Below are positions 3,905 to 33,640 of a stretch of DNA of 33,640 nucleotides, in pieces (the stretch's first letter is position 1; every line of letters starts with the position of its first letter). A program made the position numbers and the translations under genes. The notes beneath the pieces were generated by a model. It was not told where the DNA came from, did not search any database, and worked only from the letters and a program-made list of their open reading frames with translations. Origin of the DNA: Bacteroidales bacterium (lineage in GTDB: Bacteria > Bacteroidota > Bacteroidia > Bacteroidales > Bacteroidaceae); the NCBI GenBank assembly GCA_012729225.1, contig JAAYDO010000126.1:1-33640 (forward strand), given 5' to 3'.

Positions 3905-4315
3905 CCTGAAAAATGAAAATCATCTGGCACAACCCCTATTATTAGTGAAAGGAACGAATAAAAGCATGTGTGCACAAGGATGGAATAGCAGGATGGCAGT
4001 GCCATTTGCCACATCAAATGACCGAGGAGCTCTTCATGCTCCAACGAATAATGGTGGATGCGTCAATGAACAATGGTTCAATGGCAAACGAACAATGCTT
4101 CAAGTGTCGATGAACAATGGTGCGATGTTCCATGAACAATGGTGCGTTTTCACCTTCACAAGCGTTGAGTTATAGAATATACAGAAATCTTTGTATATGA
4201 ATAAGTTATAAAGCAAATCATAGTAAACATCATGGACTTCCCATGACCCTTGGAAGTGAAAAACACAAACATGGAGAAGAGTTCCACACTTATAGCCGTG
4301 GATGATGGGGCATCC
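3905..4315 (-). repeat. Interspersed 0.5-kb repeat, copy A (inverted), with five 22-bp-spaced units
   Basis: Non-coding. Read on the minus strand it aligns with the copies at 14957 and 24278. Its core is five 17-base units at 4129-4145, 4107-4123, 4085-4101, 4063-4079 and 4041-4057. Each starts exactly 22 bp from the next, with consensus GCACCATTGTTCRTTGG on the minus strand. After the array come ATGGCAGTGCCAT (4002-4014 region) and a stretch shared with copy B around ATTCCATCC. The part that would hold the element's first ~100 bases would overlap the gene ending at 4316, so this copy is 5'-truncated or diverged. It lies between convergent genes. The open frame at 3876-4175 is treated as fortuitous. 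Confidence 0.75.
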
Positions 4316-4582
4316 TCATCTTTTCTTCTTCAGAAAAGACTTCACACGCCTAAAACCCTCCACACCCAATATGGTGAGACCACCATATTGAAACGTCTTG
4401 GCAAGACCAAAAAAGATAACCCATAACGCACTCTTTGCGCCCACAGATAGATACTCGCTTGGCACAAGCATCTGAGCAAAAGAAAGTAGATAGCAAGGCA
4501 CACACAATGAAAGAACAATCACTCCCGTCCTAAATGAGAGTCCTTGCAGCCACATCTTTGCCTTCCTCCATAAATCCTTCAT
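4316..4582 (-). CDS. Small two-helix inner-membrane protein
   Basis: An 88-residue protein with a basic amphipathic N-terminus (MKDLWRKAKMWL), two hydrophobic stretches at about residues 20-40 and 50-72, and a basic tail ending KSFLKKKR. This predicts a hairpin inner-membrane protein with both ends in the cytoplasm. The order of a first helix, a short loop ending in SVGAKSALW and a second helix recalls the small 'transporter suffix domain' proteins, but that match is from memory and weak. An upstream TTG extends the frame by two codons; the ATG at 4582 is preferred. It is 178 bp beyond the GH43 operon and separated from it by a likely terminator, so it is probably a separate unit. Function unknown. 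Confidence 0.65.
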   Translation of the reverse strand: MKDLWRKAKMWLQGLSFRTGVIVLSLCVPCYLLSFAQMLVPSEYLSVGAKSALWVIFFGLAKTFQYGGLTILGVEGFRRVKSFLKKKR

Positions 4583-4702
4583 AGTCAATACTTATTGAGT
4601 GTTTCCGATAAGAAGCCACGAAGGTAGTGTTTTCTTCCCACATGACAAAGGATTCAGAACAATTTCTCTATTTTTTCTCATCAAGAGCTCATTGAAGCAC
4701 AA

Positions 4703-4732
4703 AAGATGAGACCCTGATAAGAGCCTCATCTT
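4703..4732 (-). terminator. Terminator of the GH43 operon
   Basis: AAGATGAG (4703-4710) pairs with CTCATCTT (4725-4732) around a 14-base loop that can pair further with wobbles. On the minus strand it is followed by TTTT. It lies 28 bases after the GH43 stop codon. Confidence 0.55.
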
Positions 4733-4760
4733 CATATAAATGTCTATGTAAAATAAGCGA

Positions 4761-6224
4761 TTAGTGATTGCGGAAATTCCACTTAGAGTTATCACTGTTG
4801 AAATCATACTCGGCAAGCGTTGGTGTGCAGTCGCCCGCAGAATAGAGCACCATGCGCTTGTTGATGCCTTCCTGTCCTGGAATCTGTTTAGGCATGATGC
4901 GGAAAGTACCATCGGTGAGTTGTTCAATGCGCCAGAGTTGCTCGGCAGCACCAGTAAATTCTGGCACAGAAGTAACCTCGCAGTCGGCTGTGGCAGCAAG
5001 AGCACGGTTCGTTCCCTCAATGGTAATCTTGAAGTAAGGATTGCTCAAATAGCCACCTGCCTCAGGCACTGCTGTGATTGTCCAACGCTGATGAGGGCGG
5101 AACATGTAATCGCCAATGCGGACATTGATGTTGCCTGAAGGCCATGTGCCAATCACATCCTGCAGTTTCTGGTTCTCTACTGGCTTAGGTGCTTCCTGCT
5201 GCTGATTGTTGTCACGAGGACCAAACATGCGCATGCCACCTTGCATACGTACGAAGTCCACAGAGAGTTCAAGTGAGTAACCACGACGCTCAGACTCAAT
5301 CATGTAAGTGCCTTCCTTGAAACGGTCACCAGCCACAGGCCAGTCGTTCTTCCAGAGGAGAGGACGAATGCCTAACACGCTGCGACCGCCTTGATCAAAG
5401 TCTGCCTCGTAGTGACATGACATAATCTCCACACCTTCATCAATGATGGTGCGACCAAAGTGACCAGGACCACACACACGGTCTCCAGCAGCAATGACCA
5501 TTTTACCTCCGCCATGGAACATGTCACGATTGACATTATCTATATAAGGACCAGTGACACTGCGTGAGCGACCCACCACAATGTTGTAGGTGGAATTGAC
5601 ACCATCGCAGCAAGTGCCATGAGTTCCAAGGAGATAATAGTAGCCATTGCGATAGATGAGGTCAGAAGCCTCGCAGTCAATAGCTATATCAATGGCTTCA
5701 TTTCCCTTGACACGCTCTCCTGTGTTAGGGTCAAGTTCGACAAGACGAATATTGCCAAAATAAGTACCATAACTCATCCAAAGGCGACCAGTAGTCGGGT
5801 CGAGGAGCACACCAGGGTCGATTGCGTCATTATCCTCCATACCATCGGAAGAAGCTACTTCTATAGCTGTGGAGTATTTGAAGTCTGGTGACTGAGGATC
5901 TAAGGTCTTGTTCCACATGGTGAGGATGCGTCCGTTGTGACCACCACCAAGACCACCACCTGTTGCACCATAGATGACGAGATAGCGATCGCCTATCTTG
6001 ATCACATCAGGAGCAGCACCACCACCTGGGCGCACACCACCTCCTTTCCAGTTCCAACCGTCTTCAGTGATGATACCACCACTGCCTGTGCCGAAAGTGT
6101 ACCACTTTCCATCACACTCAGCAAGTGTGGATGGGTCGTGGATATAAGGTTGTCCTGATTGAGCTGAAGCCGTTGTTGCCAGAAGAAGCGAACTGGCAAC
6201 TAATATGTTGCGTAGTATTTCCAT
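4761..6224 (-). CDS. GH43 arabinanase-like glycosidase with C-terminal beta-trefoil-like region
   Basis: A 487-residue secreted protein with a signal peptide of about residues 1-21. The five-bladed GH43 fold is indicated by the base Asp30 in HDPS, the pKa-modulating Asp136 in AIDPGV, and the general acid Glu185 in CEASDLI. Segments CCDGVNSTYNIVVGRS (205-220) and GPGH (252-255) are typical of endo-1,5-alpha-L-arabinanase-type GH43 members, so arabinan or arabinoxylan side chains are the likely substrate. The C-terminal ~120 residues (QRWTI, QLWRIEQL, SKWNFRNH) look like a ricin-type carbohydrate-binding trefoil. A Gln/Asn/Met-rich linker at about 336-352 separates them. It starts 5 bp after its upstream partner, so the two are co-transcribed. 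Confidence 0.85.
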   Translation of the reverse strand: MEILRNILVASSLLLATTASAQSGQPYIHDPSTLAECDGKWYTFGTGSGGIITEDGWNWKGGGVRPGGGAAPDVIKIGDRYLVIYGATGGGLGGGHNGRILTMWNKTLDPQSPDFKYSTAIEVASSDGMEDNDAIDPGVLLDPTTGRLWMSYGTYFGNIRLVELDPNTGERVKGNEAIDIAIDCEASDLIYRNGYYYLLGTHGTCCDGVNSTYNIVVGRSRSVTGPYIDNVNRDMFHGGGKMVIAAGDRVCGPGHFGRTIIDEGVEIMSCHYEADFDQGGRSVLGIRPLLWKNDWPVAGDRFKEGTYMIESERRGYSLELSVDFVRMQGGMRMFGPRDNNQQQEAPKPVENQKLQDVIGTWPSGNINVRIGDYMFRPHQRWTITAVPEAGGYLSNPYFKITIEGTNRALAATADCEVTSVPEFTGAAEQLWRIEQLTDGTFRIMPKQIPGQEGINKRMVLYSAGDCTPTLAEYDFNSDNSKWNFRNH

Positions 6225-6229
6225 TCTCT

Positions 6230-8287
6230 TTATTTGTTATTGATGATTGTAAAGTTTTTAACAGGTTGTCCCTTTTCATCGAGGAAACGGACACAGAAGT
6301 CGCTCATGCCCGGGCCATTGATAATAGCACCACGAAGCACATTACGACCCTTCTTCAGCGTGAGACGAGGAGACATGCAGTCGTCCTTCACCATACGACG
6401 GTCGCCTGAGAGGAGAAGCGCCTCTTCGCCATTGAGCCACCACATGGATGCGGAGTTAGAACCCACGGCAAGACGCACATCCTTTATTTCCTCAGGACAA
6501 TCAATAGTGGTGACAGCCCAGAAGAGCACGCCATACACTTGTTTCTGAAGACCTTCAGAGAAACGGAATAGTTTAGAGTTGAAAGTAGTACTCTCCATCT
6601 GATGCCAAGTGAGGGTTTGCTTGCCCGCCTTAACCTTGTCGCCATCCTTTGGAAGAATGGTGAACTGATTGGCAAAGTACTGCTGGTTGAAGTTTTCACG
6701 GAGATAGGAATCTGTAAAGACTGTATTGCTGCGGTTAGGCTTATCGATAGGCTCAAGCAGACACCAACGACGGATGAAACCTTCAGCATCAGGATGGGAT
6801 GGCTGAGCAGCTGCTGGAGTGAAGTAGGTCTGACGATTCTTGAACTGAATCCAATCCACGCTGGCGCCTTCTCCCTCGCAAGTGATGCAGAGATCCGTTA
6901 TGCCCTTAGGCATGTATTCTACAGGAGCAGTGAGTGTGAGCCACTGTCCACGCTGATCACGACGGAACTGTCCATCGCTGACCACTGTGAGGGTGAACTT
7001 AGCAATAACCTTGCCTTTGGCATTCTTCTCACGAACAAACACCTGGGTATTGCCTTCTGCCTTGATGCGACCTGTGAGGTATGCATTGCTGGCATCACTG
7101 AAATCCACATCATTGAAGGTTGCCCATGCACCCTTCTTAGGTAGAGTGACACACCAACCCTGGAAGCGGTTGGACGTATCAAGCGTGTCCACTGAAGCAT
7201 CTGCGCTTGCTGCACTGTAGCGATCCATTTCAATCTTGCTGGTCGCTTTGACAATACCTACACCACGAAGGGTTGGCTTAACCTCGATGATTGTACCATC
7301 TGGTTTGAAACCAATCTTGTCGATACATACAGAACGGCGCTTGTCGTCACCAGGTGAGTAGTCATTGTGGTGATAGAAGAGATACCACTGACCCTTGTAT
7401 TCAGTGATGCTGTGGTGGTTGGTCCAGCAATTGTTGGCATGTTCTGCCATGATGATACCTTTGAACTCCCAAGGACCAAGTGGGTTCTTAGACATAGAGT
7501 ATGCGAGAGTCTCTGTACCTGAGCCACCCTTCTCCTTATCAGAGCGTACCCATGGGAAAGTAAGATAGTACCAACCATTGCGCTTGAACACATAAGGACC
7601 TTCCTTGAATCCTTCTGGAAGACCTTCCATGTTCTGACCTGCCATCATCATTGGAGGACGGTTGCCAGCCTGCTGACCACCTTGTTGCTGACCTCCCTGC
7701 CGCTGAGGCATCTGCACTGGGGTCATCTCGCCATCCAGTTCCTTCATGTTGCTCTTGAGCTTAGAACCACGAATGCCACCACCTGACCAATAGATATAAG
7801 CCTGACCATCATCGTCGATGAGGACGCATGGGTCAATGCCTGATATGCCCTTGATAGGCTCTGGTTCACAAATGAATGGACCTGTTGGAGAGTCGGCAAC
7901 GGCTACACCTACAGCAAAGCCACCTCTGCCTGCAGCTGGAGCAGAAGGAAAATAGAAGTAGTACTTTCCATCCTTATAAACACAATCAGGTGCCCACATG
8001 GAATAGGAGTCTGGTCTGACCCAAGGCACCTTGTTTTGGGTGACAATCATGCCGTGGTCTTCCCAATCCGTGAGGTTTTCGGAAGAGAACACATGATAAT
8101 CTTCCATACAGAACCAGTCCTGGCGCTGACCAGCAGGTGGCATGATATCATGCGATGGATAGATATACACCTTATTATTAAACACACGCGCTGTAGGGTC
8201 AGCCGAAAATTGATTACGGATGACTGGGTTTTGTGCCGATAGCGCAAGTGGCACACCCATCAATAGAAATTTAATTAGGCACTTCAT
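6230..8287 (-). CDS. GH43 beta-xylosidase/arabinofuranosidase with CBM6-like and C-terminal accessory domains
   Basis: A 685-residue secreted multidomain glycosidase with a signal peptide of about residues 1-18. The GH43 catalytic domain (about 20-345) has Asp30 in SADPTARVF (base), Asp152 in GIDPCV and the general acid Glu229 in FKEGPYVF. Residues 350-487 resemble a CBM6 (EMDRYSAASA at the start, VDWIQFK at the end), a module that often binds xylan. The remaining ~185 residues resemble an accessory domain of Bacteroidales xylan esterases (RRWCLLEPI, MWWLNGEEALL); that assignment is tentative. A Gln/Gly/Met-rich insertion (194-222) interrupts the catalytic domain just before Glu229. First gene of a two-gene operon; beta-xylosidase or arabinofuranosidase activity is inferred. 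Confidence 0.85.
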   Translation of the reverse strand: MKCLIKFLLMGVPLALSAQNPVIRNQFSADPTARVFNNKVYIYPSHDIMPPAGQRQDWFCMEDYHVFSSENLTDWEDHGMIVTQNKVPWVRPDSYSMWAPDCVYKDGKYYFYFPSAPAAGRGGFAVGVAVADSPTGPFICEPEPIKGISGIDPCVLIDDDGQAYIYWSGGGIRGSKLKSNMKELDGEMTPVQMPQRQGGQQQGGQQAGNRPPMMMAGQNMEGLPEGFKEGPYVFKRNGWYYLTFPWVRSDKEKGGSGTETLAYSMSKNPLGPWEFKGIIMAEHANNCWTNHHSITEYKGQWYLFYHHNDYSPGDDKRRSVCIDKIGFKPDGTIIEVKPTLRGVGIVKATSKIEMDRYSAASADASVDTLDTSNRFQGWCVTLPKKGAWATFNDVDFSDASNAYLTGRIKAEGNTQVFVREKNAKGKVIAKFTLTVVSDGQFRRDQRGQWLTLTAPVEYMPKGITDLCITCEGEGASVDWIQFKNRQTYFTPAAAQPSHPDAEGFIRRWCLLEPIDKPNRSNTVFTDSYLRENFNQQYFANQFTILPKDGDKVKAGKQTLTWHQMESTTFNSKLFRFSEGLQKQVYGVLFWAVTTIDCPEEIKDVRLAVGSNSASMWWLNGEEALLLSGDRRMVKDDCMSPRLTLKKGRNVLRGAIINGPGMSDFCVRFLDEKGQPVKNFTIINNK

Positions 8288-8319
8288 TGGCTAGTAAATA
8301 AAAGTTAAGAAATTCTTCG

Positions 8320-8352
8320 CAAATATAGCAATTTATTTTTGATAATAACAAA
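8320..8352 (-). promoter_or_regulatory. Promoter of the GH43 operon
   Basis: On the minus strand TATATTTG (8320-8327) matches TAnnTTTG, and a TTTG (8349-8352) lies 21 bases upstream, slightly wide for -33. The start codon at 8287 is about 30 bases downstream. No regulator gene or SusR/HTCS site is seen nearby. Confidence 0.6.
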
Positions 8353-8619
8353 ACATATGGATGACTATTTTCAAAAAATTATATAATCATGAAAAAAGAC
8401 ACGTTTTGATGTAAAATAATACATGAAGAGTGTCATCAAAAACAAATAAATGTCTGATTAACACTTAAAAAACAATGCCGTTTACTTATCGTAAGAAATA
8501 AGGAATGAGGAAGGGGAAAGGGAGCAAGGGAATAGGAGTAAAAAGAATAATGTAATTTGTTTTTGAAGAAAAAGGAGAAATAAGGGAAAAGAGTGTCGTG
8601 TTATTCGGAATATTTTATG
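8353..8619. other. Divergent intergenic region with purine-rich tract
   Basis: No gene. Between the two divergent promoters, 8491-8597 is strongly purine-biased on the plus strand (runs such as GAGGAAGGGGAAAGGGAG). No hairpin or known regulatory motif was recognised. Confidence 0.4.
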
Positions 8620-8627
8620 TATCTTTG
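8620..8627 (+). promoter_or_regulatory. -7 element of lnb, giving a near-leaderless transcript
   Basis: TATCTTTG matches TAnnTTTG. Only 11 bases separate it from the ATG at 8639, so transcription would begin within a few bases of the start codon. No good -33 TTTG is seen. Confidence 0.55.
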
Positions 8628-8638
8628 CATCGCTTTTT

Positions 8639-11415: not shown

Positions 11416-11493
11416 ACACATTGTGTACACATTATATATAATAAAGGGCTGAAAGGCTCACATATTTAACAAGAATAAAACAAAACTATATAT

Positions 11494-14400: not shown

Positions 14401-14874
14401 GCCTTTGAGAAGGCCATCTTGCTCCACACCATTGATGATGCCTGGAAGGAGAACCTCCGTGCTCTCGATGAACTGAAGCAGTCTGTACAGAACGCTTCTT
14501 ACGAGCAGAAAGATCCATTGCTCATCTTCAAACTCGAATCTGTGAGTCTTTTTGATTCAATGGTAAACGACATCAACGACAACACCATCTCTGTACTCAT
14601 GCGCTGTTCTATCCCCATCGCTCAGGAAAGTGATGTGCGTCAAGCTCCAACCCAATCAATGGATGAGCCAAAGCAACACCTCACTGAGTCTCATCAGAAA
14701 TTCGATGAGCCTTCTGAGACTCAGCGACAGATGCAACAGGCAGCACAGAGCGAGACTCGTCAGCGCCAGCCTATGACTCCAGTTGTGAACGATGGTCCGA
14801 AGATTGGCAGAAACGATCCTTGTCCTTGTGGCTCTGGAAAGAAATACAAGAATTGTCACGGAAGGGGCATTTAA
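11494..14874 (+). CDS. secA: Protein translocase ATPase SecA
   Basis: The 1126-residue motor ATPase that drives preproteins through SecYEG at the inner membrane. Visible parts: Walker A ATGEGKT (195-201), the DEVD Walker B box (302-305), the peptide-crosslinking region, the helicase-like segments MAGRGTD and [13 protein letters not shown], and a C-terminal zinc-binding SecB/lipid motif with Cys1110, Cys1112, Cys1121 and His1122. The extra ~220 residues relative to E. coli SecA (901) are usual for Bacteroidota and lie partly in the N-terminal region (about 50-105) and the Gln-rich linker before the zinc motif. It is 78 bp after the phosphatase-like gene without an obvious own -7 box, so read-through is possible. 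A terminator follows. Confidence 0.98.
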
Positions 14875-14910
14875 AGTCTGATGACTATCTACTTTTTAGA
14901 ACCAATGATT

Positions 14911-14950
14911 AAGGGAGAGCGTTTACTTAAAAAATGCTCTCCCTTCTTTT
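14911..14950 (+). terminator. Intrinsic terminator of secA
   Basis: AAGGGAGAGC (14911-14920) pairs perfectly with GCTCTCCCTT (14936-14945), loop 15 bases with extra A/T pairing, followed by CTTTT. It is 36 bases after the secA stop codon. Confidence 0.85.
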
Positions 14951-14956
14951 GTTCAA

Positions 14957-15455
14957 CATGAGTTCAGCAGGATTCAGAAGCAGAAACAAATGGACTTGAT
15001 GGCTGGCTCATCTTTTCAAGCATACTTTCCCCTTTCATTTTTTGTCATAATCCATAGATAATTCCACTGAATTCATTTGCTGTGGAAGAAGAGCTAAGAG
15101 ATTCAGACAAATTTTGCTCTGTACAATCCTTCCAAGAAAGCGAAAGGCTCTCTACTTTTTTCTTAAAAGCACTCACATCTTCTTTACATCCAACAACTTA
15201 TACATGCCGGACAACTGCATGCTGACAAGGAGAAAAACGCACTCATGGTTCATGGCTCATCGCACCATTGTTCATTGACCATCGCACCATTGTTCGTTGG
15301 CCATTGAAGCATTGTTCGTTGGAACACAAGAAACAATGCCATTATGTGAGATGCCAAATAGAAGGGAAAACTTACCATTCCATCCTCTCACACACATATC
15401 CTTTTCACCCCCTCCGCTAATAGTAGAGGAGACGTGTGATAAATTTGTCTAATTC
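14957..15455 (+). repeat. Interspersed 0.5-kb repeat, copy B, full length
   Basis: Non-coding. Landmarks by offset from its start: ATGAGTT at 1; TCTTTTCAAGCATAC and TTTTTTGTCA at 54-90; GACAAATTTTG at 149; the 22-bp array from 282; GATAAATTTGTC near 481. Array units are at 15239-15255 (degenerate), 15262-15278, 15284-15300 and 15306-15322. The last three are spaced exactly 22 bp and the first by 23. It lies between convergent secA (+) and fcl (-), just after the secA terminator and just before the fcl terminator. Together with these terminators it accounts for most of the gene-free stretch 14875-15558. Confidence 0.8.
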
Positions 15456-15470
15456 AAACTTTGCATACAA

Positions 15471-15558: not shown

Positions 15559-16758
15559 CTAAGCACCCTGATGATTGATACAAATACCTTTGAGATACCA
15601 CTCATAGAGTTTGTGAATACCTTCTTCAATCTCTATGGTATGATGCCATCCAAGACGATGGAGCTTCTCCACACTGGTGAGTTTCTTGAGCGTACCGTCT
15701 GGTTTGGTAGCGTCCCAGCGAAGTTCACCCTTGAAGCCAATCTCCTGCATGATTTTTTCTGCCACCTCTTTGATGGAAATCTCTTTGCCTGTACCAACAT
15801 TGATGTGGCAGTTGCGAATCTCTTTGATACCATCACGATTGACTTTGAAGTCGCTCTTTTCAACCACATCCTTGAAATCCACATTCAAGAGACAGTGGAC
15901 AGAAGCGTCTGCCATCTCCTCGCTCCACAGGAATTCGCGCATGGGTGCTCCTGTACCCCAAAGCGTGACAGCCTCTGGCGTGATGCCATAGTGACGAAGC
16001 ACCTGAAGAATGGTATATTCATCGCTCATGGCTGTAGCCATTATGGTTTGAGTGGCCCTTGAGTCTGCATCCTCCTGAGCACCCTGACCGTCAAACATCT
16101 TAGGCACTTTCATCGAGACAGGGCGAATACCGAGGTCTTTGCGGACAGCGTCCCAATCACCTTCATTCAAGCACTTGGCCAGATGAATCTTGCGAATCAT
16201 GGCAGGAAGCACATGAGAGTTTTCAAGATGGAAGTTGTCGTTTGGACCATAAAGGTTGGTTGGCATCACAGCAATATAATTAGTGCCATACTGAAGGTTG
16301 AAGGACTCACACATCTTCAGACCAGCAATCTTAGCAATGGCATAAGGCTCGTTGGTATATTCAAGAGGAGATGTGAGAAGACAATCTTCAGGCATTGGCT
16401 GGGGCGCTTCACCAGGGTAGATACATGTTGAACCCAAGAAGAGCAACTTCTTCACTCCATGTTTCCAAGCCTCGCCTATCACATTCTGCTGAATCTGCAT
16501 GTTCTGATAGATGAAGTCTGCACGATACTGAAGGTTCGCCATGATTCCACCCACATGTGCAGCGGCAAGCACCACCGCATCAGGTTGTTCTTCATCGAAG
16601 AACTTCTTGACAGCCACAGGGTCGAGCAGGTCAAGTTCTGAATGTGGTTTCGCAACAAGATTCTCATAGCCACGAGCCTTCAAGTTGTTCCAGATGGCAG
16701 AGCCAACAAGACCACGATGCCCCGCTACAAATATTTTTGCATTCTTATCTAAAGTCAT
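15559..16758 (-). CDS. fcl: GDP-L-fucose synthase
   Basis: A 399-residue NADP(H)-dependent short-chain-type epimerase/reductase that converts GDP-4-keto-6-deoxymannose into GDP-L-fucose. The Rossmann motif GHRGLVGSA is at 13-21, the catalytic Ser110 in GSTCIYP, and Tyr139/Lys143 in YAIAK, corresponding to Ser107, Tyr136 and Lys140 of the E. coli enzyme. It is about 80 residues longer than the E. coli protein (321); the extra segment is around residues 200-265 (GDWDAVRKDL to VLRHYG). I believe this is common in Bacteroidales homologues. It follows gmd by 8 bp, so the two form a complete GDP-mannose to GDP-fucose module for surface glycans or protein O-glycosylation. Confidence 0.95.
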   Translation of the reverse strand: MTLDKNAKIFVAGHRGLVGSAIWNNLKARGYENLVAKPHSELDLLDPVAVKKFFDEEQPDAVVLAAAHVGGIMANLQYRADFIYQNMQIQQNVIGEAWKHGVKKLLFLGSTCIYPGEAPQPMPEDCLLTSPLEYTNEPYAIAKIAGLKMCESFNLQYGTNYIAVMPTNLYGPNDNFHLENSHVLPAMIRKIHLAKCLNEGDWDAVRKDLGIRPVSMKVPKMFDGQGAQEDADSRATQTIMATAMSDEYTILQVLRHYGITPEAVTLWGTGAPMREFLWSEEMADASVHCLLNVDFKDVVEKSDFKVNRDGIKEIRNCHINVGTGKEISIKEVAEKIMQEIGFKGELRWDATKPDGTLKKLTSVEKLHRLGWHHTIEIEEGIHKLYEWYLKGICINHQGA

Positions 16759-22547: not shown

Positions 22548-22555
22548 CAAATAGT

Positions 22556-24277
22556 ATGAGCACACAGACTAAACATCTGAAGATTATTTTCACGACAGAC
22601 GTACATGGGAATTACTTTCCTTATGACTTCCGTCATGAACACTGGGGAAAAGGAAGTCTCCAGCGTGTTCATGCTTTTGTGGCAAAGATGTTGCAAGACA
22701 ATCCTTGCAACATGTTGCTCATAGATGGAGGTGACATGTTGCAGGGCGAGCCTACCGCTTATTACTTCAACAACCATTGCAGCAAGTCACGACACCGTGT
22801 TGCGGAAATCTGCAACTACATTGGATATGATGTGGCTGTGATAGGCAATCACGACATTGAAATGGGAAGTGGCATCTATGATAAATATGTGAAAGAATGC
22901 AGTTTCCCTATTTTAGGAGCAAATGCCATCAATACAAAGACCAACGAGCCCTACTTCCAGCCTTATGAGATTTTCTATCGTCAAGGACTGAAGATTGCTG
23001 TGATTGGTTTCATCACTCCAGCTATTCCGCATTGGATTCCCAAAGATATATGGAAAGACATGCGCTTTGAGAACATCCCAGAGAGCGCAGAGAGATGGGT
23101 TAAACATGTCAGAGAGGAAGAGCACCCAGACTTTGTGATTGGCTTGATGCACTCTGGCATGGACGACGGTATTGTGACAGATGAGTATAAAGAGAATGCC
23201 ACTCGTGAGACAGCAGAAAATGTGGAAGGATTTGACTTGATTCTTTATGGCCACGACCATTCCAGCAACATGGAAGAGATAACCACAAAGGGCGGACGCA
23301 ATGTGCCTTGCATCAATCCTGGTTGCTATGCCTATAATGTGGCAGTGGTGGATGTGGATTTCCGCATCAATGGTCAGGGGAAAGTGACCAGCCATGAGAC
23401 TCAATGCACACTTAATTATATTGGCACGCTTCACAATCAGCATGCCAACTCCTTCAAGCGTCATTTTGCCTATCCCTTCCACGAGGTGAAACGGTTTGCA
23501 TCCCAAAAGATTGGCACATTTCTAAATCGTGTGGACGTGACAGATGCCTACTTTGGCTCTTCTGCCTACATTGATCTCATACAGTCACTGCAACTCAAAG
23601 TGAGCAGTGCAAACATTTCGTTCACTGCCCCACTCTTCTTTAATGCTGCCATTGAAGAAGGTGACATTCGGGTGAGCAACCTGTTTGACCTCTACCGTTT
23701 TGAAGATCATCTCTACACCCTTCAACTGTCAGGTCGGGAAATCAAGAGTTATCTGGAAATGAGTTATGCGTGTTGGACACAACAGATGCACGAGCCTACA
23801 GACCAGATGTTGCTCATTTCTCCTATGAAGAACAACCCCTCACGTATGGGGTTCAAGAACTTCATATTCAATTTCGATTCTGCTGCCGGCATTCATTATG
23901 AAGTAGATGTGACCAAGCCTGAAGGGAAAAAGATTCGCATCATCAAGATGGACAACGGAGAATCGTTTGATCTTGACAAGAACTATACGGTAGCAATGAC
24001 TGCCTATCGGGCAAATGGTGGAGGAGAACTACTGACAAAAGGTGCAGGTCTCACCAAAGAGGAAATAGACAAACGCATACTGAAGGTGAGCAAGCACGAC
24101 ATTCGTTATTATCTGCTGGACTACATCAAGGAACTCGGCACTATCAATCCACAACCACTCAACCATTGGCGCTTTGTGCCTGAAGACTGGGCTAAGCAAG
24201 CGTCAGACCGCGAGCGAAAGATTCTCTTTGGTGATGCCAAAACCGAAGGGAAATCGAGCGTGGAAGAAATATCTTAA
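22556..24277 (+). CDS. Cytosolic UshA-family 5'-nucleotidase / metallophosphatase
   Basis: A 573-residue two-domain metallophosphoesterase of the 5'-nucleotidase (UshA/CpdB) family, expected to dephosphorylate nucleotides or similar phosphoesters with a two-metal centre. Metal and catalytic motifs are all present: Asp15-x-His17 (TTDVHG), Asp60 (DGGDMLQGE), Asn98-His99-Asp100 (GNHD), His199 (LMHSG) and GHDH (232-235). The C-terminal substrate-recognition domain begins after about residue 310. UshA orthologues are periplasmic, but here the first strand starts at residue 8 with no signal peptide, so a cytosolic location is predicted. No downstream Met could restore one. The promoter nearly touches the ATG. 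Repeat copy C starts on the base after its stop. Confidence 0.9.
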   Translation: MSTQTKHLKIIFTTDVHGNYFPYDFRHEHWGKGSLQRVHAFVAKMLQDNPCNMLLIDGGDMLQGEPTAYYFNNHCSKSRHRVAEICNYIGYDVAVIGNHDIEMGSGIYDKYVKECSFPILGANAINTKTNEPYFQPYEIFYRQGLKIAVIGFITPAIPHWIPKDIWKDMRFENIPESAERWVKHVREEEHPDFVIGLMHSGMDDGIVTDEYKENATRETAENVEGFDLILYGHDHSSNMEEITTKGGRNVPCINPGCYAYNVAVVDVDFRINGQGKVTSHETQCTLNYIGTLHNQHANSFKRHFAYPFHEVKRFASQKIGTFLNRVDVTDAYFGSSAYIDLIQSLQLKVSSANISFTAPLFFNAAIEEGDIRVSNLFDLYRFEDHLYTLQLSGREIKSYLEMSYACWTQQMHEPTDQMLLISPMKNNPSRMGFKNFIFNFDSAAGIHYEVDVTKPEGKKIRIIKMDNGESFDLDKNYTVAMTAYRANGGGELLTKGAGLTKEEIDKRILKVSKHDIRYYLLDYIKELGTINPQPLNHWRFVPEDWAKQASDRERKILFGDAKTEGKSSVEEIS

Positions 24278-24775
24278 CGTGAGTTAGACAAACCCAGACG
24301 ATGAAGCAGTTAGTTTCGGTGGTTGATGTATCTTTTCAATCATACCTCTCCCCTTTTATTTTTTGCCAAAATCATGGATAATTCAAAGGGTATTTGCCCA
24401 CAGTGCAGGAAAGAGGAAAAGACTCTGACACGTTTTGTCGCAGGATGACTCTTGCAAGAATGGGAGTGAGGTCATGCCTGCATCCAATAATTCCCATATC
24501 TTATTCAAGCACAATGATTTATAGAGACCATAGAGCATCATGCCTGTGAGGTTAAAAACGCACCATTGTTCGTTGGTCATCGCACCATTGTTCATTGACA
24601 CTTGAAGCATTGTTCGTTGGCCATTGAACAATGGTTCGTTGGAGCATGAAGAACACTTCGGGCGTGAGAGATGAAAAATGGCAGGGGGATCCTGCCATTT
24701 TATCTTCACAATCACCTGCTTTTATTTATACCCTCCAACAATTGAGGCTGGACATGGAAAATTTATCAAACCTTG
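24278..24775 (+). repeat. Interspersed 0.5-kb repeat, copy C, full length
   Basis: Non-coding. It begins CGTGAGTT on the base after the nucleotidase stop codon. Offsets of shared blocks: TCTTTTCAATCATAC at 53, GACACGTTTTGTCGC at 149, array at 282, GGAAAATTT at about 478, nearly the same as copy B. Array units at 24560, 24582, 24604 and 24626 (17 bases each) are spaced exactly 22 bp, with 5-base linkers. A strong hairpin (24675-24701) follows. It lies between the convergent nucleotidase and DUF2752 genes and explains most of the gene-free stretch 24278-24830. Confidence 0.8.
24675..24701. terminator. Hairpin inside repeat copy C
   Basis: An 11-bp perfect stem AAAATGGCAGG / CCTGCCATTTT with a 5-base GGGAT loop, then TATC. 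It could act as a bidirectional terminator for the flanking convergent genes. Copy A has a related but weaker palindrome at the matching place. Confidence 0.6.
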
Positions 24776-24799
24776 CGTTTTCTTAGGATACAGATTTGC

Positions 24800-24822
24800 T
24801 TTGACAATGTAGCATCGTCAAA
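24800..24822 (-). terminator. Hairpin after the DUF2752 gene
   Basis: TTTGACAATG (24800-24809) pairs with CATCGTCAAA (24813-24822) with one mismatch and a 3-base loop, 8 bases after the DUF2752 stop. No good T tract on the minus strand, so termination is uncertain. Confidence 0.35.
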
Positions 24823-24830
24823 ACAGCATG

Positions 24831-25226: not shown

Positions 25227-25259
25227 CAATGAAGCACGGATGATGATTGATGAGAGAAC

Positions 25260-25853: not shown

Positions 25854-25889
25854 AATTCAAGTAATATATATGTGTGAATAAAGTAATTG

Positions 25890-25897
25890 CAAATGTA
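25890..25897 (-). promoter_or_regulatory. -7 element of the GYF_2/dispanin gene
   Basis: On the minus strand TACATTTG matches TAnnTTTG, 36 bases before the ATG. No -33 TTTG is seen at the usual distance; the terminator of the efflux operon lies directly upstream. Confidence 0.5.
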
Positions 25898-25900
25898 AAC

Positions 25901-25938
25901 AAAAAAGATGAATCATCCATAAATAATTCATCTTTTTT
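25901..25938 (-). terminator. Terminator of the RND efflux operon
   Basis: AAAAAAGATGAAT (25901-25913) pairs perfectly with ATTCATCTTTTTT (25926-25938) around a 12-base loop, giving U tracts in either direction. It lies about 107 bases after the tolC stop on the minus strand. Confidence 0.8.
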
Positions 25939-26045
25939 TGATATTATCAACTAATTCATGTGAGTTCGATGGATTCACATTCACATAATATATTAATCGC
26001 ACAGAAAAAGCAAGTGGACTTCTGTGGCAGAATGTCCCTCAGCAA

Positions 26046-27467: not shown

Positions 27468-27508
27468 GGATTCAAAAATTATAGTTTCAAACAAAAACAG
27501 TGATACAT

Positions 27509-30500
27509 TTATTTGATTTTGAAGAATATCGCATATAGCACAGGAATGAAGATCAAGGTAATGAGTGTACCCATGAAAAGCCCACCCATGATGGTGACTG
27601 CCAAAGAGCCAAACATGGCATCAGGCACAAGAGGTATCATGCCTAAGATAGTGGTGAGGCTCGCCATCATCACAGGGCGAAGACGTGACTTGGAACTTTG
27701 AATGAGAGCAGTCCTCGGCTCAATCCCCTGAGATATTTCAAGCGTGATTTCATCCATCAATACTATTCCATTCTTTATCATCATGCCTATCAAACCCAAC
27801 ACACCAACAATAGCCACGAAACCGAAGGGCTTTCCTGTCATCATCACAACAGGAATCACACCTATGATGACTAATGGGATGCAACAGAAGATGATGGCTG
27901 GTTTCTTATAGTCCTTAAAGAGCATGATCAAGATGAGAATCATGATGACAATACAGATAGGGAATCCATTGAAGAGATACTTCATTGACTGGTCGGAGGC
28001 TTTCTTCTCACCTTCCCAACTCAGTGTGTATCCTTCTGGCAACTGAATCTTCTCTATCTCTTCTGCAATGGACTGACGAGCTGCTTCTGTTCCCACTCCA
28101 GGACAAGGAGAACACTGCAAGCGTTGGCTTCTCTGACCATTGAAACGCACCACCACAGGTTCTTCCCATTTGATGTCAATACCCTTCGACACCTGCTTGA
28201 GAGGGGTGGTACGAATAAGACTTTCTATCACATTCTCACGAGTAACAGCACCTGTCATCAATTTCTGAATGGTAGAGCGGTTCAAGTACGGACCAATATT
28301 GGGCATCGTGCCAAACACACGAGCATTCAGAAGATTCTCCACATTGTCGCCATTCTCGTCTGTGCATTTCACATAAATGCTTTCAGCATTAATACCATTG
28401 TAGAAAGTACCAATAGGCACACCACCTGTATATGCCATCATGGATAGTGCCACATCACTACGAGACAACCCACTTGTGCGTGCAGAAGCCTGATCATAGT
28501 CAATGCTCAACACAGGAACACGAGGTTCCCAATCTGACGTGGCAAGATACACCTTATTAGAAGCATCCACAATGGCACGAGTAGAATCCACCAACTGATG
28601 AAGAACGGCAGGGTCAGGTCCACTGAAACATGCCTCAATAGGATATTTCTTAAACATCAGATTATATCTCTTGAACTTCACATAAGCATCTGGATACAGA
28701 TCACTTATTTCTTTTTGCAGAGAGTCTATATGTTCCACCAGAGCCGAAGGAGATGTGAAATCTATGATGAGTTCACCATACGCCAACGAAGGAGTAGCCA
28801 CTGAACGAACAAGATTGTAGCGTGAGGGTGTACCACCAACAGCAGAGGTCACTTGAGTGATGTAGTCTCGCTTCATCAATAACTCACGGATTTCCTTCAG
28901 GTCTTTTGCTGTCTGAGTGGAGTTGTAGCCCTCTGGCAACTTATACTCCATATATAGTTGGTCATACTCCATATCAGGAAAGAATGCCTGATTCACAAAC
29001 TTATAGCACAAGCCACTGATTGCCAAAAGCGCAATTGCTCCAGTCACCACTGTCTTGCGGTGCTTCATTCCAAAGCTAAGCACCTTTTCCAACACATCAT
29101 AAGATTTACCTTTATAAAGTTCTGCCTCACTTTCTGACTGCTCCTTAGACAGCGCAACCTTCTTAAACATCTGGTTGCTCACCACAGGCACATGCACCAA
29201 GGCAAGTATCCAACTGAGCAGGAGGCTCACCGCAATCACAATGAAGAGGTCACGCACATATACGCCTGCGGTGTCTGGACTCATGAAGATAGGAAGAAAG
29301 GCAAGAATGGCTATCAAGGTAGCGCCAAGAAGAGGCATTGCGGTCTTTTGCCCAATAGATGTGAGTGCTTCCATTCTTGGTTTCCCCTGCTTCATGTCCA
29401 CCAAGATGCCATCAACAATCACAATGGCATTATCCACCAGCATGCCCATGGCCAAAATAAAGCTTGCCAACGACACACGCTGGAGTGTGCCATCAAATCC
29501 TTTCAGCACTAAGAACGATCCAAACACTATCACCACAAGACTGCCACCAATAATGCATCCACTTCTCCAGCCCATGAAAAAGACCAATAGAAGCACCACA
29601 ATAGCAACAGACTCCAATAGATTGATAAGGAATGTATTAAGAGCCGAACTCACACGCTCTGGTTGGAAGAAAACCTTATGGCATTCCATGCCTGCAGGAA
29701 AACGATTCTCCAACTGAGCAATAGTCTCTTCCACCCTTTTGCCAACCTTGAGAATATCGTGATCAGACAAACAGGCTATGCTGATACCCAAAGCACGCTC
29801 ACCATTATATGACATCTGATTGCGTGTTGTGGCTTCATAAGTCTTGGTCACAGTGGCAATATCCTTAATGCGCAACTGATCATCATCATGACCCTGAATG
29901 AGCATATTGGAAATATCATCCACATTATTAAACTTATCACTCACATCCACCCGAATGCGTCTGTCACCATTGTCATAGTAGCCTGCATAACTTGTCTTGT
30001 TCTGATTGTTAAGCGTCATGATGACCTCTGTAGGCAACACACCCATATTGGCCATCTTGTCCTCACGAAGCTCGATATTGATACATTGACTCCTCTCACC
30101 ATAAATCTCCACTCGGCTCACACCCTCTATCTCACCCACATTGCGCTTGATGAGTTCGGCATAGTCATTCAATTCCTTATCATTCAGACCGTCACCTGTC
30201 AGCGCATAAAACATACCATACACATCACCAAAATCATCTCTCACCTGTGATGCCGATGCTCCTTGTGGCAATCTTCCCTGAACATTCGCCACCTTTCTTC
30301 GCAAAATATCCCACTGCTGCTCCACTGCATCATCAGGCACAGTAGTCTGAAGTTCCACCGTGATGAGACTCAAGTCAGCATAACTTGATGACTGAATGTT
30401 GTTAATAGTGGACATCTCTCGGATGCTTTTCTCCAGAGGATCGGTAATCTGCAACTCCACCTCATGGGCTGAAGCACCTGGATAAGTGGTAATCACCATT

Positions 30501-30637
30501 GCCTGTTTCACCTTGATGGCAGGATCTTCCAGTTTTGACATCTCACCATACGACAAGATACCACCCACCACCAGTATCACCACCAGAAAGTTTATCAGCT
30601 TACTGTTATCCAAAGCCCATTTGCTAAAATTCATCAT
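27509..30637 (-). CDS. RND-family multidrug efflux transporter (HAE-type)
   Basis: A 1042-residue proton-driven inner-membrane pump of the AcrB/MexB superfamily. Topology signs: an N-terminal helix (about 14-30), a large periplasmic loop, helices 2-6 from about 338, a second periplasmic domain (about 560-870) and C-terminal helices with IGMMIKNGIVLMDEI, which holds the conserved relay Lys. The proton-relay motif in helix 4 reads GMLVDNAIVIVDG: Asp402 is kept and the adjacent Asp of AcrB is Asn403, as in several HAE subfamilies. Substrates cannot be read from sequence. Start may be either of two tandem ATGs (30637 or 30634). It follows the adaptor gene by 55 bp and precedes tolC. Confidence 0.94.
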   Translation of the reverse strand: MMNFSKWALDNSKLINFLVVILVVGGILSYGEMSKLEDPAIKVKQAMVITTYPGASAHEVELQITDPLEKSIREMSTINNIQSSSYADLSLITVELQTTVPDDAVEQQWDILRRKVANVQGRLPQGASASQVRDDFGDVYGMFYALTGDGLNDKELNDYAELIKRNVGEIEGVSRVEIYGERSQCINIELREDKMANMGVLPTEVIMTLNNQNKTSYAGYYDNGDRRIRVDVSDKFNNVDDISNMLIQGHDDDQLRIKDIATVTKTYEATTRNQMSYNGERALGISIACLSDHDILKVGKRVEETIAQLENRFPAGMECHKVFFQPERVSSALNTFLINLLESVAIVVLLLVFFMGWRSGCIIGGSLVVIVFGSFLVLKGFDGTLQRVSLASFILAMGMLVDNAIVIVDGILVDMKQGKPRMEALTSIGQKTAMPLLGATLIAILAFLPIFMSPDTAGVYVRDLFIVIAVSLLLSWILALVHVPVVSNQMFKKVALSKEQSESEAELYKGKSYDVLEKVLSFGMKHRKTVVTGAIALLAISGLCYKFVNQAFFPDMEYDQLYMEYKLPEGYNSTQTAKDLKEIRELLMKRDYITQVTSAVGGTPSRYNLVRSVATPSLAYGELIIDFTSPSALVEHIDSLQKEISDLYPDAYVKFKRYNLMFKKYPIEACFSGPDPAVLHQLVDSTRAIVDASNKVYLATSDWEPRVPVLSIDYDQASARTSGLSRSDVALSMMAYTGGVPIGTFYNGINAESIYVKCTDENGDNVENLLNARVFGTMPNIGPYLNRSTIQKLMTGAVTRENVIESLIRTTPLKQVSKGIDIKWEEPVVVRFNGQRSQRLQCSPCPGVGTEAARQSIAEEIEKIQLPEGYTLSWEGEKKASDQSMKYLFNGFPICIVIMILILIMLFKDYKKPAIIFCCIPLVIIGVIPVVMMTGKPFGFVAIVGVLGLIGMMIKNGIVLMDEITLEISQGIEPRTALIQSSKSRLRPVMMASLTTILGMIPLVPDAMFGSLAVTIMGGLFMGTLITLIFIPVLYAIFFKIK

Positions 30638-30692
30638 CTTTGTAAAAAACTATATTCTTATCGTTTATCTATTATAAAACACAGGGATGATG

Positions 30693-31766
30693 CTATAGCA
30701 AACCACCCACATTAGATGCAGACGGCTTCTGGAGAACCCTCACCTTTTGACCATCCTTCACATGATGTGCACCGGCAGCAACCACCCTCTCACCAGACTT
30801 AAGACCGTTGTCCACCTCCATCGCACCATCTCTCTCCACTCTTGCCACATTCACATTGCGAAGTTTCACCACTCCTGCTTTCTCGTCATATACAAACACC
30901 TGAGTCTTGCCATTCGTATCAATCACAGCCGATGATGGAACATGAACCTTGCCCGCAGCATCCTTATTTGACACCTCGGCATACACAATAGTTGTCATGC
31001 CTGGAGTAATCTTCTTATGATCCACTGCATCCATGAACTTCAGACGCACATTATATAATTGAGAAGTATTGGCCTCCTGACTCATGCGCACCAAAGAAAG
31101 AGGAAACTCCTTGTCTCCTGTCACATCAAACTGACATTTGAAACTTGTGAATTTATCTATATTGGCATAATCCGTTGCACTGATCTGAATCTGCACCTCA
31201 ATGCCATCACGTCCAAACACACTCACCACAGGCATCCCTGCAGACACGGTTTCTCCACTTTCATGAAACTTGGTCTGGACATAACCACTTATATTACTTC
31301 TCAGTTGTGTGTCAGCCAGCTGATTCCGATGATTAGCCAACTTCTGAGTGATTTGCTGCAATCCATACCGAGCCTTATCATAATTGCTGGCAGTAGTGTT
31401 GCCCTCCTGATAGAGCGCCATCACTCGTTCGGCATCTGCTTTCACCTGCTGATATTCTGCTTGAGTTGCTGCCAACTGCACTTGGTAGTCACGGCTATCC
31501 ATCATTGCCACCACCTGACCTTGACGTACATAGTCGCCTTCTTTCACCAACACACGCTGAATCTGACCTGCCACACGAAATGCCAGATTCACTTCCTCTG
31601 CCGATTTTGTCTTGCCGGTGAATGTGGTCGCACCCAACTCATTCAGTCCCTTGACTGTTTCCAGAACTACCATTGGAGCATCATCCTGCGAGCCTTCTTT
31701 TTTGCCACAAGAAGCAAGACCCAACGCAAAGACAAGCATGGAAATAAGATAAAAATTCTTTTTCAT
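30693..31766 (-). CDS. RND efflux periplasmic adaptor lipoprotein
   Basis: A 357-residue membrane-fusion (AcrA/HlyD-like) protein linking the pump to the TolC channel. The lipobox LASC places the lipidated Cys at residue 20, so it is inner- or outer-membrane-anchored. Lipoyl-like halves flank a helical hairpin: VAGQIQRVLVKEGDYVRQGQ-type first half, then a coiled coil of about 70 residues, then SGYVQTKFHESGETVSAGMP. The beta-barrel and membrane-proximal domains follow (ITPGMTTIVYAEV, VPSSAVIDTNGKTQVFV, LKSGERVVAAGAHHVKDGQ). The frame is open to 31838, but the promoter at 31791-31798 and the lipoprotein signal favour the ATG at 31766 (31778 is possible). First gene of the operon, divergent from an AraC regulator. 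Confidence 0.93.
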   Translation of the reverse strand: MKKNFYLISMLVFALGLASCGKKEGSQDDAPMVVLETVKGLNELGATTFTGKTKSAEEVNLAFRVAGQIQRVLVKEGDYVRQGQVVAMMDSRDYQVQLAATQAEYQQVKADAERVMALYQEGNTTASNYDKARYGLQQITQKLANHRNQLADTQLRSNISGYVQTKFHESGETVSAGMPVVSVFGRDGIEVQIQISATDYANIDKFTSFKCQFDVTGDKEFPLSLVRMSQEANTSQLYNVRLKFMDAVDHKKITPGMTTIVYAEVSNKDAAGKVHVPSSAVIDTNGKTQVFVYDEKAGVVKLRNVNVARVERDGAMEVDNGLKSGERVVAAGAHHVKDGQKVRVLQKPSASNVGGLL

Positions 31767-31790
31767 AGATTCATACATTTTATTTGTTTG

Positions 31791-31798
31791 CAAAGTTA
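31791..31798 (-). promoter_or_regulatory. -7 element of the efflux operon
   Basis: On the minus strand TAACTTTG matches TAnnTTTG, 24 bases before the ATG at 31766. The -33 region lacks TTTG, as would fit an activator-dependent promoter; the divergent AraC-type gene is the obvious candidate regulator. Confidence 0.6.
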
Positions 31799-31932
31799 TT
31801 ACATTATTTTGGAACTTGAATAGTGTAAAATCAAGCATTATTGTTCATTTCGTATGTTTTGTTTAAAAATATTTGCTCAATAAGTTGGTGGATTAATTGG
31901 AAAGTATTTATTTTGTGATAAAATCAAATACA

Positions 31933-32883
31933 ATGATTGAAGAAAAAGTAACCATATTCGAATTAAAGGGAGGGGAAGTAAACATTCTCAACGCAGAAAG
32001 CGAGAGCGTGAAACTCACCAAGACAGGTATCTTCATCTGCAAAGAAGGCGAGGTGGATCTAACCATTGACAGCGTGGAGTACCACTTGAGAAGAAACTCC
32101 ATCATCGTGTATTTCTCTTATAGTGACCTGCACATTCTTCGCCACACTCCCAATCTCCGTGGCACATTGGTAGGAGCCAATCTTGAAATCATCCAGCCAA
32201 TGCTATACAATGTGACCAATTTCAATGCTCTGTTCATCATCAAGCAAGTGCCACATCAGAGCATATCCGATGCACAATACAAGGCACTCTACCAATACAT
32301 CTACCTACTTCAAGAAGTGATCAAGAAAGAGAAACTTGAAGAGGACGAAGAAGTGGACATCAAACATACTCGTCCAATGATCGAGATTGCGCATAAGCAA
32401 GCAGAACTCCTCAGTTATGCACTGATGCTCGAAGTCCTGCAGTGCTACACGAATGTAGTTCCCCATAATGAGCCTTTCTCCCGCAAAGATGAAGTGCTCC
32501 AGAAATTCGTGTCCATGCTCTACCGCAAATACCGCACGGAACATGATGTGGCATACTATGCCGACCAACAGTTCCTCACCGTTCGGTATTTCAGCACGAT
32601 CATCAGGGAACGCTCTGGTAAGTCCCCCATCAAATGGATTACCACCGCACTTCTGGTGGAAGCCCGGGACTTGCTTAAGAATACCAACATGAGCATCAAA
32701 GAGATTTCCGACTTTCTTTGCTTCCCTAATCAAAGCTATTTTGGCAAATGGTTCAAAAACCTCACATCCATCTCTCCTCTTGATTTCCGCAAAGGAAAAT
32801 CTGAAGGTATCAGCACTGATACATCATTTGCTGATGTCATCAAACGAGGCATCAACTATGTCAAAAACAACGGAATCAGTTAA
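31933..32883 (+). CDS. AraC-family transcriptional regulator
   Basis: A 316-residue regulator with an N-terminal cupin-like sensing domain (about 1-110: ELKGGEVNIL, GIFICKEGEVDLTI) and a linker helix region with an acidic run (EKLEEDEEVD). The C-terminal AraC double helix-turn-helix spans about 205-300 (AYYADQQFLTVRYFSTIIRE, given in part; SIKEISDFLCFPNQSYFGKW; SPLDFRK). It is divergent from the RND operon with 166 bp between start codons, so it is the likely regulator of the pump; the inducer is unknown. The frame opens at a TTG at 31897, but the ATG at 31933 is preferred. A lipoprotein gene follows 51 bp downstream. Confidence 0.9.
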   Translation: MIEEKVTIFELKGGEVNILNAESESVKLTKTGIFICKEGEVDLTIDSVEYHLRRNSIIVYFSYSDLHILRHTPNLRGTLVGANLEIIQPMLYNVTNFNALFIIKQVPHQSISDAQYKALYQYIYLLQEVIKKEKLEEDEEVDIKHTRPMIEIAHKQAELLSYALMLEVLQCYTNVVPHNEPFSRKDEVLQKFVSMLYRKYRTEHDVAYYADQQFLTVRYFSTIIRERSGKSPIKWITTALLVEARDLLKNTNMSIKEISDFLCFPNQSYFGKWFKNLTSISPLDFRKGKSEGISTDTSFADVIKRGINYVKNNGIS

Positions 32884-32934
32884 AATCAAAACACTAAGTT
32901 CAACCAAACAGATTAAATTCATCAACTCATCAAC

Positions 32935-33411
32935 ATGAAAAAGATACTTTCTCTCATCCTCATCATCACATGTGCCACTCTCACATTGACTTCATGCAGC
33001 GACGATGGCTCCAAAGCCACCTGCACCTACTATGTGGCAACCACTGCCGTGGAACACTCTGATGACCAAAACAAGCAGTATGAGGAACTCATCCTGTCCA
33101 ACATCATCCAACACGGACTTTCCTCCTATACATTTACCGAATCAGCCGAGTCAAGCGACGGTCGCCAGCAGATTGCCATCATGCTCTGCAACGAACAGGC
33201 GGTAAAGACCTTTTCCTCCAGAACACCAACCAACATGGACTTATCCACCGTTCAGCAGGAAATCTTTAATGCCAATCCACAGTTCTTTGCCGAAGCGGGC
33301 ATCACCTCTATCGAAGACTTCCAACTCCATCCCTACACCATTCATCTTACACTCCTGAATGAAATTGATAGGCAAACACCTATCAGTGAAATCACCATCT
33401 TCGTAAAATAG
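32935..33411 (+). CDS. Small lipoprotein of unknown function
   Basis: A 158-residue predicted lipoprotein: positively charged start, hydrophobic segment, lipobox LTSC with the Cys at 21, then SDDGSK, an acidic +2 region. The mature part has mixed helix/strand character and no motif I recognise (YYVATTAVEHSDD, NNQ-like segments are absent, IEDFQLHPYTIHLTLLNEI near the end). It is 51 bp downstream of the AraC gene with no terminator between, so the two may be co-transcribed and the protein could relate to envelope stress or efflux. That is inference. Repeat copy D begins on the base after its stop codon. Confidence 0.75.
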   Translation: MKKILSLILIITCATLTLTSCSDDGSKATCTYYVATTAVEHSDDQNKQYEELILSNIIQHGLSSYTFTESAESSDGRQQIAIMLCNEQAVKTFSSRTPTNMDLSTVQQEIFNANPQFFAEAGITSIEDFQLHPYTIHLTLLNEIDRQTPISEITIFVK

Positions 33412-33640
33412 CGTGAGTTCGACGAGTTTGGAAGATGAAGCAGTCGGTCTCGACTGTTAGCACATCTTTCCAATCATTCTCCTTTCATTTTTTTGTCAAA
33501 AATCATGGATGGTTCAATGGTCGTTTGACTTGAATGGAAGAAAGGCAAAGCGATTCTGACAGATTTTGTCGCTGGGCAACTCTTCCAAGAGAATGAAAGA
33601 CATTCCACTGTATTCTATAAATCAGCATATCTTCTTTATA
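33412..33640 (+). repeat. Interspersed 0.5-kb repeat, copy D, cut by the window end
   Basis: It begins CGTGAGTTCGACGAG on the base after the lipoprotein stop codon. Shared blocks TCTTTCCAATCATTCTC (offset 53), AATCATGGATGGTTC and GACAGATTTTGTCGC (offset 146) align with copies B and C. The window ends before the position expected for the 22-bp array (offset 282, about 33694). Confidence 0.75.

Follow-up and report, generated by a model that had tools for sequence, protein, structure and literature searches.

The described elements closest to the one treated here are miniature inverted-repeat transposable elements (MITEs), a name given to elements of 50-1000 bp. BrickBuilt of Porphyromonas gingivalis has a non-repetitive leader and tail, terminal inverted repeats (TIRs) and an internal 23-nt minisatellite; it is always intergenic and amounts to 19 copies, its reported hosts are P. 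gingivalis and P. gulae, and its TIR (GAGACC...) resembles the IS5-type insertion sequences (ISs) ISPg1/ISPg9 (PMC4596501). The same source covers MITE464/PgRS, with 41-nt repeats, and MITE239 and MITE700 of P. gingivalis, whose termini were matched to ISPg3, listed there under the IS5 family. MITECca01 of Cardinium cOegib derives from IS982 and forms 169 mostly intergenic copies of ~240 bp in one lineage, their upkeep by the parental IS being thought likely (PMC9769881). The present repeat family has four copies in a stretch of 33,640 nucleotides of a Bacteroidales bacterium (contig JAAYDO010000126.1, from position 1; hereafter the window). This stretch corresponds to C113, one of the 213 contigs that make up a draft genome of 2.89 Mb (G000). 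The family is very probably a MITE, a non-autonomous element of 501 bp with IS982-type TIRs of ~17 bp that is presumably mobilised in trans by an IS982 transposase. It merges features of BrickBuilt and of IS982-derived MITEs and belongs to a known kind of element.

Like BrickBuilt, the family consists of intergenic MITEs with TIRs and internal tandem units, but its TIR is ACGTGAGTT of IS982 and not GAGACC, its unit has 22 bp and not 23, and it exceeds 100 copies. The left terminus of MITE239 (ACGTGAGTTCGA...) and the right terminus of MITE700 (TCGAACTCACGT) are nearly those of the family, the comparison covering the termini only; unlike the family, both elements seem, as far as their description goes, to enclose neither a mini- nor a microsatellite (PMC4596501). 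MITECca01 shares with the family the link to IS982, the presence in one lineage and the mostly intergenic position, but it is shorter, and its description never uses the word 'tandem' in the main text (PMC9769881). No description of the element itself was found in the literature, subscription papers lying mostly outside the search.

Well-kept copies measure ~501 bp and have ACGTGAGTTCGACGAAT at their start and its complement at their end. Among 22 copies with both ends, 21 have 480-541 bp and one has 325 bp, within the length range of MITEs. A preliminary description of the window, made from the sequence by itself, had recognised four collinear copies of one non-coding repeat. All four are recovered by a profile of 502 positions built from seven well-kept copies, and descent from a single non-coding multi-copy element is confirmed. 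The same description saw no terminal inverted repeats and no IS or simple MITE to which the repeats could be assigned. Both statements were mistaken: the family has TIRs, which agree with the ends of an IS982-family IS resident in the genome, and its best copy (C202:8752-9252) is flanked by a perfect target duplication of 7 bp.

The best copy of the window spans 24277..24778 (+ strand, 502 bp; profile match 24278-24772, 462 bits). Its left TIR, ACGTGAGTTAGACAAAC (24277..24293, +), has 3 mismatches to ACGTGAGTTCGACGAAT, while the right one (24762..24778, -) is degenerate and ends in ...AACCTTGCGT, both ends being read from the sequence. The array of 22-bp units, called the core below, occupies ~280-375 of the profile positions and lies here at 24557..24651 (+), with tandem periods of 22 and 44. 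In 106 copies the number of recognisable units ranges from 0 to 5 and is most often four (47 copies) or three (30 copies); 13 copies have two units, 10 have five and 6 have one or none. The unit variants keep a fixed order across copies. A hairpin-like inverted repeat follows the array in several copies; in the best one of the window it reads AAATGGCAGG-GGGAT-CCTGCCATTT (24676..24700, +).

The family is abundant in G000. The 356,520 bases fetched from this genome were chosen around matches, many of them by the core pattern, a procedure that biases the copy set towards conserved cores. They hold 106 copies by the first profile and 109 clusters by a second-round profile, 27 of which extend near both ends. 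When the genome is searched with 24278-24775, 55 matches are obtained from the best 40 of 176 candidates. A 26-mer of the core is present at 98 sites with up to three mismatches, as compared to 0 for its reversed control, which places the shared blocks beyond background AT-rich similarity. The phased array pattern matches 328 times in G000, while its reversed control gives 0 and 44 genomes of the same genus (congeners) give 0 each. Since 244 of the 328 matches occupy 101 clusters of the fetched set, scaling leads to an estimate of about 135 array-bearing loci. The genome search proposed in the preliminary description thus yields many further copies; its figure of hundreds genome-wide was somewhat high.

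The TIRs relate the family to IS982. With up to three mismatches, ACGTGAGTTCGACGAAT is found at 105 sites of G000 and its reversed control at 10. Many of the sites are located ~100-130 bp from contig ends, and the sequence behind them is identical or nearly so. One type of contig end runs, by eye, into MITEDKVTEIFCIADDFCKFF. The other type matches the C-terminal part of the same kind of protein: in tblastn with a congener IS982 transposase, residues between 267 and 304 match at six contig ends and the N-terminus matches at the ends of C78 and C41. Because the TIRs sit near contig ends backed by IS982-matching sequence, we infer that the two contig-end types are both ends of a multi-copy IS982 collapsed in the assembly. 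Remnants give three matches to NF033520 in G000, the best of 54.7 bits and below the cut-off. Intact IS982 copies of 1,051 bp with the same TIRs (1 mismatch) and an open reading frame (ORF) of 304 amino acids are found in congeners G013 and G066, and G062 has one of 1,048 bp between TIRs, with masked bases. The G013 transposase scores 259.6 bits against NF033520, whose cut-off is 130. DNA of the left end of the G000 IS has matches in 21 of the 44 congeners and the TIR, at no more than 1 mismatch, in 32, the control matching in none. The family itself is devoid of transposase: over the 356 kb fetched, tblastn with the IS982 transposase matches IS ends and remnants.

One of these tblastn matches, an antisense fragment of the IS982 transposase on C34, directly adjoins the right half of a MITE copy (L122 / G000:C34:29958-30362); near 30428 there is a possible left end, with a poor match to the TIR. 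A second TIR variant, ACGTGAGTTCGACGTAA, occurs at ten sites including L093 and L096, most of them near contig ends, and the elements bearing it likewise break contigs; a weak match to the IS982 C-terminus is found at one such end (C154). At L070:1501 and L082:1501 the TIR is backed by a different sequence with a common GATTTCGATTGACAT start. The sequence behind it differs also at L094 and L095, whose contig ends are identical and where the element may be recent. Leftwards from 1517 in L071 and L087 the TIR is backed by tandem units (CCTTCGATA... and CTCGAAGGCAT..., respectively), which may belong to additional elements that enclose tandem repeats. At L089 / G000:C183:2340-2912 an IS982 has an internal deletion between its TIRs and measures 573 bp.

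Insertion left duplications of 7 bp at the two best copies. The MITE at C202:8752-9252 has TAAGACA on both sides (7/7), and the window copy at 24277 lies between TATCTTA (24270..24276) and TTTCTTA (24779..24785), which agree at 6 of 7 positions. The IS982 of G013 is bordered by TAAGATA on both sides (7/7), and IS982 and MITE agree in the length of the duplication, as judged from a single IS and no more than two MITE copies. Over 14 congener IS or MITE copies (of 16 elements fetched, L212 and L214 being left out) the flanks match at 4.57 of 7 positions, compared to 3.08 when permuted, and 0 of 5000 permutations reach this value.

Two sites are found without the element in congeners. The copy at 14956..15459 (+; profile match 14959-15455, 358 bits; right TIR degenerate; array at 15237..15325, +, by tandem-repeat detection) lies between a secA-like gene that ends at 14874 and a gene for an NAD-dependent epimerase in convergent orientation (15559-16758, -; assigned with Pfam). 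The two flanks adjoin on one contig in seven congeners, and none of the seven gaps matches the family profile even at E 10. The gap has 105-282 bp in six of them versus 710 bp in G000, while in G018 it has 483 bp and contains that genome's own unrelated 196-bp MITE (L258 / G018:C58:56979-57174). At the C202 site the flanks are within ~285 bp of each other in G064, G030, G024, G068, G022, G002 and G066, versus 687 bp in G000, by flank spacing alone; in G007 they are 574 bp apart. The empty sites for which the preliminary description had looked to related strains are thus found in other species and not in strains. Beside the C202 copy there is a motif of ~50 bp (L081:2087-2140) that recurs in many congener genomes and presumably resembles the Bacteroidales promoter consensus.

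The same termini serve other elements in the genus. G018 has 47 TIR sites, and nine elements fetched from it (L215-L221, L226, L227) have 172-214 bp between the same TIRs and are palindrome-rich by eye; 5 of the 9 show a 7-bp duplication, with 6 or 7 positions in agreement. TIR-bounded elements of 99, 302 and 243 bp are present in G030, G033 and G062, respectively. G036 carries a 468-bp IS982 with an internal deletion (L222 / G036:C70:1144-1611), composed of 55 + 413 bases whose identity to the two ends of the G066 IS is 100 and 99.8%, respectively. At E 10 the family profile has no match to any of these elements of G018, G030, G033, G062 and G036. The G018 MITE resembles the family in its TIR and in the location of one copy, the secA-epimerase gap, but differs from it in length and lacks a profile match. 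Within a single genus, MITEs that are unrelated to each other and reside in different species use one IS982 terminus, and two of these MITEs occupy the same intergenic gap. The internally deleted IS982 copies of 573 bp (C183) and 468 bp (G036) are possible early stages of MITE birth.

Several observations weigh against mobilisation by IS982 as the source of the family. No intact IS982 is assembled in G000, where its existence is deduced from contig ends. Of the 109 clusters, just 27 come near both ends. In the 69 of the 105 TIR sites that were compared, 29 are at a family copy and 40 elsewhere. MITE and IS ends share little beyond the termini, and an origin by deletion of IS982 is unsupported for the family. 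Among 18 own copies with both ends, a 7-bp duplication is recognisable in 2, the other 16 matching at 0-4 of 7 positions; the mean flank match of 2.61 of 7 is no clear excess over the permuted 2.20, as 308 of 5000 permutations are as high. At the majority of the insertions in G000, the duplication thus seems to have faded with age.

The non-autonomous MITE remains the preferred explanation, with the following course of events. An IS982 transposase supplied in trans would recognise the MITE ends, and copies would insert into AT-rich targets of 7 bp, frequently with TA or CA at the end, and duplicate them. The copies that survive are intergenic, and convergent genes flank half of those that could be classified. 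The expansion has been seen in this lineage alone and is probably old, decay having overtaken the majority of the target duplications and flanks. The founder already carried the 22-bp array, as the order of its units is kept across copies, and the array has since been better conserved than the rest of the element.

The family is dispersed, multi-copy and intergenic. According to a crude in-house ORF caller, 0 of 106 copies lie within a long ORF, defined as one exceeding the copy by >450 bases. When 26 copies at edges are left out, 80 remain: 40 lie between convergent and 5 between divergent genes, while the others are flanked by tandem genes, which have the strand opposite to the copy in 26 cases and that of the copy in 9. 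The 179 other adjacent gene pairs of the same sequence comprise 35 convergent, 115 tandem and 29 divergent ones. Copies are therefore in excess between convergent genes (P=1.4e-6) and in deficit between divergent ones (P=0.03), and their strand is biased within tandem pairs (26 to 9, P=0.006).

The array is the best conserved part of the element. In 25 near-full rows, those of 151 that align as one stretch, identity to the consensus is 0.870 in the core, 0.724 in the left flank and 0.727 in the right flank, and the core is the best-kept of the three segments in 25/25. When uniform mutation is simulated and passed through the same alignment, the core comes out ahead by only ~1-3 points, and alignment bias was rejected as the source of its conservation. 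Fetching by the core pattern favours conserved cores, yet the rows lying at TIR sites (27 of the 151, from 69 of the 105 sites) agree, with 0.882 in the core versus 0.733 and 0.767 in the flanks. Core identity does not drop with flank divergence: from the most to the least diverged third of the rows it is 0.881, 0.867 and 0.864 (correlation -0.06). Much of the divergence must postdate insertion, because the target duplications are nearly gone, and the flat core identity over flank age thus suggests either constraint or conversion between copies. Columns of a 12-bp motif are at 0.93 and spacer columns at 0.83, the motif being higher in each of the four units, a contrast that favours constraint. 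Constraint is the likeliest cause of core conservation.

It is plausible, at a little under even chances, that the units are helically phased sites for a host protein, kept by purifying selection in a family co-opted genome-wide. The 22-bp period is close to two helical turns. The conservation of the core, its independence of flank divergence in copies whose target duplications are nearly randomised, and the motif-spacer contrast all speak in favour of such sites, as does the positional identity of the units. Between copies, identity is 0.820 for units of the same position and 0.627 for different units; within a copy, different units are at 0.619 (47 of 151 rows usable). Different units are no more alike within a copy, which rules out concerted evolution within arrays, and homogenisation of this kind is therefore not the cause of core conservation. 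On the other side, arrays phased at 22 bp are not beyond chance in the 44 congeners, where there is no sign of the same function. The palindromic form GAACcattGTTC is present in only 32 of 310 units. The same low count led to the rejection of a LexA-like palindrome, GAACnnnnGTTC, in the units. That the array is a protein-binding site at all is a guess. More tentative still is the proposal that ~135 helically phased arrays, chiefly between convergent genes and selected while the copies around them decay, might form a lineage-specific network of binding sites for a putative protein. With more than 100 replicate copies of an array that outlives its element, selection on the minisatellites of bacterial MITEs becomes directly testable.

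Gene conversion among dispersed copies would instead homogenise the core without constraint. This is doubtful, though it has points in its favour: ~90 bp of high identity across dispersed copies could seed ectopic conversion, units of the same position are alike across copies, and the length of the array varies from 0 to 5 units, with four in 47/106 copies. It accounts poorly for the lack of homogenisation within arrays, and conversion would not favour a motif that is better kept than the spacer in four units. No second family was seen to share the core: in 21 clusters whose ends could not be recognised, the flanks have a single 56-bp match in common.

The repeats are non-coding, and a structured RNA or a family of intrinsic terminators is a highly improbable alternative. 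Of 28 copies, just 1 keeps open a frame of the left half that begins in the TIR, and the element shows no period of three in its conservation, which excludes a small protein in the left half and bears out the earlier statement that no open frame survives across copies. The longest stop-free runs of 21 copies have a median of 83 codons, versus 62 in shuffled sequence, and occur at differing places on both strands. The inverted repeat AAATGGCAGG/CCTGCCATTT near the right end of several copies is a point in favour of such an RNA. Pairing of this stem over 85 rows is nonetheless at the shuffled level (0.728 versus 0.721 with partners shuffled). Double changes are in weak excess, with 26 cells at 9 of 10 pairs versus 19.1 when shuffled and 18 of 500 shuffles as high, in a count that does not allow for relatedness of the copies. 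The consensus fold of 21 full copies reaches -1.1 kcal/mol, compared to -0.2 (sd 0.5) with columns shuffled, its covariation term is negligible, and Rfam has no match at gathering scores. The covariance analysis suggested in the preliminary description thus returns no consensus fold and at most this excess in one stem, and a structured RNA was rejected on pairing, fold and Rfam with one weak result in its favour. Chance similarity of AT-rich sequence can practically be discarded in view of the 328 phased array matches, with 0 in the reversed control and in the 44 congeners, and of a profile collinear over 502 positions.

Outside G000 the family is absent from the congeners, while the parental IS and other MITEs with the same termini are present there; of the relatives to which the preliminary description pointed, this genus thus yields the termini and not the repeat. 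A whole-element search in 36 congeners gave 0 matches (6-24 candidates each, at most the best 10 scored), and in 24 other genomes of the order one weak match of 44 bp (E 6.9e-4; at most the best 10 candidates each). The array pattern with 2 mismatches has 0 matches in the 44 congeners. A laxer phased pattern with 3 mismatches matches 706 times in G000, once each in 4 of the 44 congeners and once in the control. A pattern scan of genome contigs gave one match, in a KSB1 metagenome-assembled genome, about the number due to chance by a rough estimate; viral contigs gave 0 and plasmids none, records near G000 being possibly excluded from all these scans. The nearest thing outside G000 is an array of palindromic GAACAATTGTTC-like units in G064 (L259:304-385 / G064:C72:11503-11584; 37.9 bits to the profile). 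It is read as unrelated because its period is 21 bp and no TIR is found in the 701 bases fetched around it (best, 8 mismatches). A putative GAACAATTGTTC-like binding motif might nevertheless be common to the genus.

Two further copies complete the set of the window. The one at 33411..33640 (+; profile match 33412-33640, 167 bits) retains the left 230 bases, the rest being cut by the contig end, and starts at 33411 with the TIR GCGTGAGTTCGACGAGT (+, 2 mismatches). A degraded copy at 3917..4234 (-) matches the profile at 4234-4058 and 4055-3917 (157 and 86 bits), has no recognisable TIR at either end with up to 4 mismatches, and keeps an array at 4042..4144 (-; period 22, 4.7 copies). At 24275-24277 and 33409-33411 the first base of the element completes the stop codon of the upstream ORF (TA|A and TA|G, respectively), insertion at a target ending in TA thereby regenerating the stop.

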